Position numbers and translations under genes: made by a program. Below are positions 42,062 to 44,524 of a DNA stretch of 64,000 nt, one piece after another; the first letter of the stretch is position 1, and each line of letters begins with the position of its first letter. The stretch spans positions 1-64,000 of the forward strand of contig JABDLF010000088.1 in assembly GCA_013003115.1 (NCBI GenBank), read 5' to 3'. The DNA comes from Gammaproteobacteria bacterium (GTDB lineage Bacteria > Pseudomonadota > Gammaproteobacteria > Steroidobacterales > JABDLF01). Under the pieces are notes generated by a model, which saw only the letters and a list, made by a program, of their open reading frames with translations, was not told where the DNA came from and searched no databases.

Positions 42062-42089
42062 AGAGCCACGCCTTTGCAGGCGTGGCTCT
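42062..42089. terminator. bidirectional intrinsic terminator between murU and the repeat lipoprotein gene
   Basis: AGAGCCACGCC-TTTGCA-GGCGTGGCTCT, 11-bp perfect stem; minus strand followed by TTTTTTTT, plus strand by GGTTCTTT. Confidence 0.9.
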
Positions 42090-42149: not shown

Positions 42150-43652
42150 TCAGAACTTCAGGCCGAGGGAGCGAATGACATCAATCGTGATGTACTTCTC
42201 ACCCGAACTCAGGCCATTGCGCTCGGCATAGCACTGAGCAGCTTTCAGCGTGCATGGACCCATGATGCCGTCAATCTGGCACTCATTGCGGTTAGGTCCA
42301 CAGCGGCAGCAGCCAGTCTTGTTCAGCGAGCTCTGCAGCGCGCTGACGTTCTCGCGGGTCATGTTGACTTCGCACAGCACCGGACGCCACTCAACTTGCT
42401 CATCCGTGACCTTGTTGCGACGGCTGATGGTTGTGTACTCCGCCGGAATCGCAATGCGACGCTCGCTGGCAGGCTTGATCTGCTTCGTGACCTTCACGGT
42501 GCCGTATTCGGCAGGGATGGTTACTTCACGCGTCGTCTCAGGACGAACCTGCTTGGTCACTTCGACCGTGCGGTATTCAGCCGGAATCGTGATTTCGCGA
42601 GTGCGCTCAGGCGTCTTCAACACCGTCTTCTTGACGGTCTTGTATTCGGCCGGAATGCTGATTTCGCGAGTCGTGGCAGGCCGCTTCAGAACCGTCTTCT
42701 TGACAGTCTTGTACTCAGCCGGCTCTTCGACTACACGCGTGGTAGCTGGCTTAACGAGAACCTGCTTCTCGATGGTCTTGTACTTGGCGGGGATTTCCAC
42801 CAGGCACATAACTTCGCCGGTTTCTTCTACGCGGGTCTCGAGAACCTTCAGATCGCCAAAGCGCTCAATAGTCTGGGTTGCGCTTGACATGGCAACGCCG
42901 CTGCCCGAGCCGATGCCGGTGCTGCGCTTCCATTCGGTACGCGCCGGCTCGTCAAGGACGCGCTCGGTAACCGTGTCGTAGACCGCAGGCACTTCGACGT
43001 TGCGCGTGCTTGCAGCCCTGACCATGACCTGCTCTGTAACAGTCTCGTATTCAGCAGGGATGCTCTCCAGGCGCGTAGATGCCGGCTTTACCAGCACCTG
43101 CTCGGAAACCGTCTCGTACTGAGCGGGAATGATTTCAAGACGCGTAGACGCCGGCTTTACCAGCACCTGTTCGGAAACCGTCTCGTACTTGGCCGGAATA
43201 ATCTCAACTCTGCTTGACGCTTCTTTCATCAACACGGTTTCTTCTATCGTGTCATAGCGGGCAGGGATGATCTCTATGCGCTCAGCTGCGTCGCGCTTAA
43301 GCACCTTTTCCGTCAGGGTTTCGTACTTCGCAGGAATAATCACCCGCGCGTAGCACTCACCCGGCTTTGGGTTCGGTGGCATCAGGCCAGAGCTGCTGGC
43401 GTTGCTCATCTGCGGCTGTGCGCTTTGCATCGCGCGACGCTGCTCTTCGAGGCGCATTTTTTCAGACTTGAGCTGCTGCGCCTCGCGAGCGAGCGCGGCT
43501 TCTTTTCGGTCAAGCTCGGCTTTTTGAGTCGCAATGGCTGATGCGGATGCGTTGCCCGCGCCAGAGCGATCATCGGCGCCGGTGCTTGCGCAGCCACCGA
43601 GCACGAATGTCGCGATGGCGACCATCGCTGTTAAATGTAACTTCTTCGTCAT
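42150..43652 (-). CDS. lipoprotein with 12 tandem 23-aa repeats and a Cys-rich peptidoglycan-binding-like C-terminus
   Basis: Lipobox-like FVLGGC; heptad-like N-terminal helix; repeats IPAxYxTVxxxVLxxPAxTRxxx; C-terminal LQSSLNKTGCC...IDGIMGPCTLKAAQCYAERNGL. Confidence 0.85.
   Translation of the reverse strand: MTKKLHLTAMVAIATFVLGGCASTGADDRSGAGNASASAIATQKAELDRKEAALAREAQQLKSEKMRLEEQRRAMQSAQPQMSNASSSGLMPPNPKPGECYARVIIPAKYETLTEKVLKRDAAERIEIIPARYDTIEETVLMKEASSRVEIIPAKYETVSEQVLVKPASTRLEIIPAQYETVSEQVLVKPASTRLESIPAEYETVTEQVMVRAASTRNVEVPAVYDTVTERVLDEPARTEWKRSTGIGSGSGVAMSSATQTIERFGDLKVLETRVEETGEVMCLVEIPAKYKTIEKQVLVKPATTRVVEEPAEYKTVKKTVLKRPATTREISIPAEYKTVKKTVLKTPERTREITIPAEYRTVEVTKQVRPETTREVTIPAEYGTVKVTKQIKPASERRIAIPAEYTTISRRNKVTDEQVEWRPVLCEVNMTRENVSALQSSLNKTGCCRCGPNRNECQIDGIMGPCTLKAAQCYAERNGLSSGEKYITIDVIRSLGLKF
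42381..43337 (-). repeat. coding tandem repeats, 69-bp unit: six copies (42924-43337) and six copies (42381-42794)
   Basis: Direct alignment of the translated protein, residues 106-243 and 287-424, each exactly 6 x 23. Confidence 0.93.
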
Positions 43653-43900
43653 TGGGTTAGTTCCTCCCGGTTAATTCCCCATGCAGCCAGCCGATCTGTG
43701 CGGTGGCTGCCATTGTCGTCCTTTTGATCCTGCTTCCAGTGTCCTTACTCGCCGCCCTCTATGTCAGGAAAACTGACGTAATTAACAGATCGGCGCTAAT
43801 CAGGTGGCGGCATGATACTGCTGCTTGCGATGAATAGGAGGCGCCGAAACATCAGTTAACACTGTGTGCAACATGTTTTGACAATTGCAGGCTTCTCGAC

Positions 43901-44524
43901 TCAGGCAGAGAAGAGTTCCTGCAGGCAGGGCCGGAGGATTCTGGCAACTACCGAGGTGGCTGACGGGCCGCCGAGATTGGCCAGCGACGTGACTTCGAGG
44001 CCGTCAAAGCCACAGGGGTTGATTCGTGAGAAGGGCTCGAGATCCATATCGACATTGAATGCCAGGCCGTGATAGCTGCAACCCCTGCGAATCCTGAGGC
44101 CCAGGCTCGCAATCTTTCGGCCTGACACGTAGACACCCGGGGCATCTGGCCGACTTGCCGCCTCTATGCCGTAGTGTGCAAGGGTTGTAACAACAGCCTG
44201 CTCAAGGCCGCTGACGAGAGCCCGAACCCCGAGTTTGCGGCGTTTCAAATCGATGAGCGGATATACGACCAGCTGACCGGGCCCGTGATAGGTAACCTGC
44301 CCGCCTCGATCAATGCGAATGACGGGTATGTCGCCCGCATTGAGCACGTGCTGCATATCGCCATTGAGCCCGACGGTGAATACCGGCGGGTGTTCAAGCA
44401 TCCAGATCTCATCATCGGTTTGAGGATTGCGATTGTCGGTAAAGGCCTGCATGGCCGCCCAGGTGCTTCTGTAGTCAGCCAGACCAAGGTCCTTGAATTT
44501 GAGACCAGGGTTTTCCTGCATCAC
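43901..44524 (-). CDS. lipB: lipoyl(octanoyl) transferase
   Basis: [51 protein letters not shown]. Confidence 0.97.

Follow-up and report, generated by a model that had tools for sequence, protein, structure and literature searches.

Paired-arm repeat proteins of the bacterial cell envelope form a family that has not been described so far. One polypeptide carries two arrays of 23-residue units, arm A and arm B, whose unit numbers are nearly always matched. One member is encoded in the window, which is the whole 64,000-nucleotide stretch of DNA analyzed here, and this protein is best understood from the equality of its two blocks, a point that the earlier note on this DNA missed. Sequence comparisons show equal unit numbers, an antiparallel register with a fixed offset and a linker that does not depend on the number of units per arm (n), and from these we infer the three-dimensional shape and function. 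The best explanation, which we consider highly probable, is that a single chain forms a giant β-hairpin with paired arms and serves as a rooted spike or scaffold. An architecture in which two arrays zip together rung by rung, adjustable from 2 to 10 rungs, evolve in lockstep and form a spike that is rooted at one end and conserved at its tip has, on balance, probably not been described before.

The repeat lipoprotein gene and its product

The gene and the parts of its product are as follows (AF2, AlphaFold2):

42150..43652, minus: complete gene for the repeat lipoprotein, 500 aa (ATG start, open reading frame, ribosome-binding site)
43663-43668, minus: ribosome-binding site GGGAGG, upstream of the repeat lipoprotein gene
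43590..43652, minus: signal peptide with lipobox LGGC, residues 1-21, Cys21, Ala at +2 (sequence pattern)
43422..43544, minus: long charged helix, residues 37-77 (AF2/DSSP, mean pLDDT 81-88 in most 10-residue blocks)
43335..43379, minus: N side of the predicted hairpin base, cap PPNPKPGECYARVII, residues 92-106, C1 = Cys100 (conserved cap)
42921..43334, minus: arm A, six 23-aa units, residues 107-244, Trp241 in the last unit
42792..42920, minus: tip/linker, residues 245-287, ending TGEVMCLVEI, C2 = Cys283 (conservation)
42378..42791, minus: arm B, six 23-aa units, residues 288-425, Trp422 in the last unit
42153..42377, minus: C side of the predicted hairpin base (C3 = Cys427) and PG_binding_1-like C-terminal domain (profile, Foldseek, PDB)
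42062..42089, minus: intrinsic terminator, 12-bp stem followed by a T run

The open reading frame is real, with a ribosome-binding site and a terminator of its own, confirming the earlier observation of a repeat gene at this place; on the plus strand, no open frame spans 42150-43652, which is interrupted by stops. The motif PA-x-Y-x-T occurs 12 times at an exact spacing of 23 residues (residues 107-222 and 288-403), while 2000 shuffles of the protein's own residues gave at most one copy. Two blocks of six exact-length repeats with a PAxYxT core were thus correctly seen in the earlier note, which counted units from the Ile preceding each Pro (106-243 and 287-424), where we count from the Pro. 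Also borne out were the 43-aa linker between the blocks (residues 244/245-287), the lysine richness of the second block (17 Lys in arm B versus 8 in arm A), the lipobox (residues 18-21, with C21) and the seven cysteines of the C-terminal part (427, 448, 449, 451, 458, 467 and 474). Six of these lie beyond C3, in a PG_binding_1-like part of about 75 residues. With 6+6 units and caps C100/W241 and C283/W422, the window protein has the features by which we define the paired-arm family. Within the window gene, A3/A4 (86% DNA identity) and B2/B3 (80%) are the most recently duplicated pairs of units, indicating that each arm underwent its own recent duplication, as separate events.

Searches of Pfam, NCBIfam, PHROGs and the PDB with the whole protein returned nothing for the 23-aa repeats, in agreement with the earlier note, which recognized no characterized family, and a search of the open-access literature turned up neither the repeat motifs nor the paired-arm idea. 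MORN repeats have a 23-residue period and are all-β and extended, with self-folding GxG/YxGEW hairpin units (PMC7725318). The window repeats share this period and the predicted β content and extended shape, but differ from MORN repeats in their PAxYxT motif and in that the partner of each unit would lie in the opposite arm; the window protein had no Pfam match to MORN at E <= 10 and does not fit the GxG/YxGEW consensus.

Relatives were detected at class level in 50 of 369 genomes, at order level in 27 of 297 and at phylum level in 10 of 299, under thresholds that differ among these ranks. Named records, which are metagenome-assembled genomes, came from Woeseiaceae, Beggiatoa/Thiomargarita, Granulosicoccaceae, a Geminicoccaceae bacterium, a Campylobacterales bacterium and Nitrospirota. 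A minimal 2+2 form occurs in Methylobacterium. Phage records contained no match to the repeat protein and plasmid records contained one. This defines an uncharacterized envelope family of marine and sulfur bacteria (Woeseiales-type, Beggiatoa/Thiomargarita) and Nitrospirota, so far visible only as "peptidoglycan-binding domain" matches.

Matched copy number and antiparallel covariation of the two arms

In most tandem-repeat proteins, unit numbers rise and fall without constraint. In the survey of repeat number across relatives that the earlier note had proposed, the number varies, while the two arms stay equal with one exception. All 63 cleanly parsed two-arm proteins (63/63) had equal numbers of A and B units, with n = 3, 4, 5, 6, 7, 8 and 10. 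This count leaves out L063 and L091, which the parse dropped, and L116, a four-arm protein misread as 3+8, which was the only unequal row of the parse and was discounted. Minimal 2+2 forms, read by eye, extend the family range to 2 to 10 units per arm. The spacing from the first cap Cys to the Trp of the last A unit is 3+23n residues, and that from the second cap Cys to the Trp of the last B unit is 1+23n residues. Of the 17 parsed rows other than 4+4, 16 were equal, as compared to a mean of 4.0 and a maximum of 11 in label shuffles. Along the tree, n changed about 8 times, and a test on independent pairs, which comprised 3 pairs only, gave agreement in all of them, a number too small to reach significance. 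Orthologues at the same chromosomal site have 3+3 (L049/L185), 5+5 (L034/L183, L184), 6+6 (the window), 8+8 (L181) and 10+10 (L182) units. One unequal two-arm protein was seen, the 3+4 protein of a Nitrospirae (Nitrospirota) bacterium (L063, 2311-3315), so arm equality is not absolute; its relative L066 is 4+4. Linker length was independent of unit number. We propose that copy numbers remain equal because a change in one arm needs a matching change in the other.

To examine residue-level coupling between the arms, average-product-corrected mutual information was calculated for 43 distinct 4+4 proteins (a small effective number, about 27) and averaged over registers, in which antiparallel pairing appears as a constant position sum and parallel pairing as a constant position difference. 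The antiparallel sum of 86 (= 23n-6) ranked highest, with a z of 4.56, and was followed by 85, 87 and 84, while the best parallel A-B register reached 2.04 and the sums that are one unit off, 63 and 109, fell below 0. When these proteins were divided by linker length into two disjoint groups, both groups peaked at sum 86 (z of 3.19 and 4.16). That one constant sum holds over the whole arm suggests that long and short strands share one continuous ladder. Charge complementarity between the arms was also best at the covariation register. In every parsed case with n >= 5, including the 8+8 and 10+10 proteins, A-arm YGxG units oppose B-arm ANVDTT-type units in the antiparallel arrangement and never in the parallel one, for which the chance is about 1 in 960, counting two lineages.

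Four-arm proteins provided a further comparison (23 proteins, order A1 A2 B1 B2, three units each). Here, the nesting expected of a folded-back chain was seen: A1-B2 covariation peaked at the predicted sum of 63 (= 23x3-6) with a z of 3.05. The A2-B1 signal was weaker, with a z of 2.2 to 2.6, and was equalled there by a parallel offset (2.86). Neither A1-B1 nor A2-B2 showed a peak at the predicted register in these 23 proteins. Within this subfamily (L104-L128, L172), A1/A2 and B1/B2 co-vary in parallel register 0 (z of 3.07 and 3.84), which perhaps reflects shared ancestry or the packing of two ladders.

Antiparallel pairing of A and B units is thus well supported by the sequence comparisons, and the covariation suggests that each A unit pairs with its mirror-image B unit, giving one giant β-hairpin. 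In the window protein, arm B is taken as the antiparallel partner of arm A at a residue sum of about 525.

The predicted hairpin and alternatives to it

In the proposed fold, the two arms of one polypeptide would fold back onto each other such that A unit i pairs with B unit n+1-i. Together, they would form a continuous antiparallel two-stranded β ladder with rungs of 23 residues, in which the "PA" corners of opposite arms face each other. In AF2 models of P0001 and one 4+4 relative, each arm is made of strands that alternate between 12 and 7 residues, in line with the earlier suggestion of β-rich repeats; these models are of moderate to weak confidence (mean pLDDT 66-67, pTM 0.33 and 0.40), which is lowest in the middle units. 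The predicted strand boundaries mirror at the sums expected from covariation, but a parallel offset fits almost as well, since the strand pattern is nearly palindromic, so the mirroring is compatible with the hairpin and not decisive. We therefore dropped it as proof of antiparallel pairing. In Foldseek searches with both models, the C-terminal domain alone was matched credibly; the repeats gave matches to a phage collar, pore toxins, Fabs and a herpesvirus protein that had low probability or an rmsd of ~26 A and more.

Other arrangements would account for part of this evidence. Arm A of one molecule might pair with arm B of another in a domain-swapped dimer or fibre, which would fit the covariation and the equal numbers as well as pairing within one molecule does, and the conserved tip Cys could link chains. 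We regard this as rather unlikely, given that the linker, often only 19 residues from Trp to Cys, stays short whatever the value of n, as a simple turn needs, and that nested four-arm proteins fit a single chain folding back. It is more doubtful still that each arm is an independent β-solenoid or meander of the MORN-like kind, with equal numbers left by duplication history. The exact 23-residue period, the β content, an AF2 strand pattern compatible with such a fold and a weak within-arm signal at offset 23 (z of 1.8) speak for it, but in both disjoint subsets the strongest covariation is that of the antiparallel A-B register, and A and B duplications are separate events, so history alone would not hold equality through 3, 5, 6, 7, 8 and 10 units. 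Solenoid stacking of neighboring turns was rejected, with no covariation at sums 63 or 109.

The earlier note had favored an envelope-spanning lipoprotein. As a tether, it would have its lipid end in the outer membrane, repeats that cross the periplasm and its far end on peptidoglycan, consistent with the lipobox, the PG_binding_1-like end and a gene that adjoins a rod-type wall-synthesis operon. Antiparallel arms, however, would bring both ends to one side of the repeats, and paired arms are kept in relatives without either end; this reading is therefore unlikely and the claim was not upheld. A role of the long hairpin as a pore-forming stem like that of aerolysin-type toxins is a very remote possibility. 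Lysenin, epsilon toxin and aerolysin were among the low-probability Foldseek matches, but at probabilities of 0.03 to 0.23 and an rmsd of ~35 A or more. Moreover, hydropathy differs little between the two faces of the ladder (-0.50/-0.21 in the long segment and -0.38/-0.41 in the short one), which suggests that there is no membrane-facing side. The pore-former was rejected on this ground, both faces being similarly polar rather than those of an amphipathic hairpin.

The single-chain hairpin recalls a known layout. SMC and Rad50 fold-back coiled coils are built from one chain with equal arms, the termini together and a conserved tip at the other end. The window protein would, by analogy only, have the same layout of two equal arms, shared base and conserved tip; SMC/Rad50 arms, in contrast, are helical, lack fixed-length repeats and have no sequence relation to the paired-arm family. 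The paired-arm ladder may in effect do with β strands what fold-back coiled coils do with helices. Two arrays within a single gene that shift copy number jointly, in fixed 23-residue steps and with a measurable residue register, make lockstep evolution of repeat arrays directly testable, and they offer a modular β rod with its length set by unit count.

Base, tip and genomic setting

At the base of the predicted hairpin, the two chain ends would meet, with the lipid anchor and helix on the N side and the peptidoglycan-binding-like domain on the C side. The earlier call of a lipoprotein is graded probable by sequence pattern (Cys at 21, Ala at +2). Ala at +2 of a lipoprotein favors outer-membrane sorting. 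The peptidoglycan-binding-like nature of the C-terminal end likewise gained support: PG_binding_1 (PF01471) matched all 7 relatives tested (7/7; best E 4.5e-15, with at least one member below the Pfam cut-off), whereas the window protein itself gave a sub-threshold match to PG_binding_3 only (Pfam, E 0.083). In the PDB, the C-terminal 75 aa resemble the C-terminal domain of Pseudomonas SltB3 (5ao8) and the N-terminal domain of SleB (6tci), and this region had no PDB matches other than PG_binding_1-type domains. The likeness covers sequence profile and fold over about 45-57 residues. PG_binding_1 proteins match the C-terminal end only and not the 23-aa repeats, and the domain is missing in some relatives.

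The lipobox is kept in most proteobacterial relatives and missing in several relatives. L173 (3+3) and L069 (2+2) lack both the lipobox and the peptidoglycan-binding domain. The earlier note had counted homologues without these ends as evidence against its reading, which such proteins weaken in part; they suggest that anchor and domain are accessories and that the paired arms are the defining part. In the long-arm relatives L006, L007 and L038, low-complexity stretches rich in Ser/Gln/Ala or Gly/Ser lie between anchor and helix.

Conservation in the 4+4 relatives climbs toward the tip in both arms and is highest in the tip stretch TGE-[IV]-MCL (3.60 bits/column), while the N-side cap has 3.34 bits/column. 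Several relatives (L092-L094, L167, L169) have lost C2 and kept C1 and C3, suggesting a C1-C3 disulfide at the base, by which the base is probably locked. The conserved tip would be held away from the base as the working end. As antiparallel arms would place the lipid anchor and the peptidoglycan-binding-like domain at the same end, the protein is probably not an envelope-spanning tether, and a rooted spike or scaffold arm is more likely. Such an arm would likely be anchored in the outer membrane and docked on peptidoglycan, with a reach predicted to be set in 23-residue steps.

The window gene adjoins lipB, ybeD/DUF493, dacA, an RlpA-type lytic transglycosylase gene, mltB, rodA and PBP2; on its other side are genes for a MurU-type nucleotidyltransferase and an AmgK-type kinase, lptD and surA (facing). 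These neighbors were assigned by Pfam, except for lptD, which was identified by its sequence. In relatives, the orthologue site reads dacA - lipB - lipA - gene - nucleotidyltransferase/lptD. The lipA gene, which lies between lipB and the repeat gene in those relatives, is absent here (window 43653-43903), and its best match in the same genome is on contig C5, with 45% identity.

A 5+5 paralogue in the same genome (L005, contig C104:1-12000) lies beside genes for caspase-domain (PF00656), CHAT-domain and TPR proteins, a setting shared in whole or part by two other 5+5 relatives, and many 4+4 relatives have response regulators and Hpt proteins as neighbors. Since there are several gene contexts, the family appears to be used variously, and the neighborhood fixes no single function. 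The cluster around the 5+5 paralogues L005, L035 and L040 is conserved and includes two small unknown proteins besides a TPR protein and an envelope protein of the PKD or a related type; L005 and L035 have the caspase-domain and CHAT-domain proteins in this cluster, and L057 (4+4) has a caspase neighbor too. Response regulators and Hpt proteins adjoin L041, L050, L052, L053, L056, L058 and L065 (4+4 and 3+3), and a large protein without Pfam match (LLFGAEKQALDSIAERV) is found beside these relatives. In two 3+3 relatives, L058 and L065, a Ras-like GTPase and a hybrid histidine kinase lie alongside.
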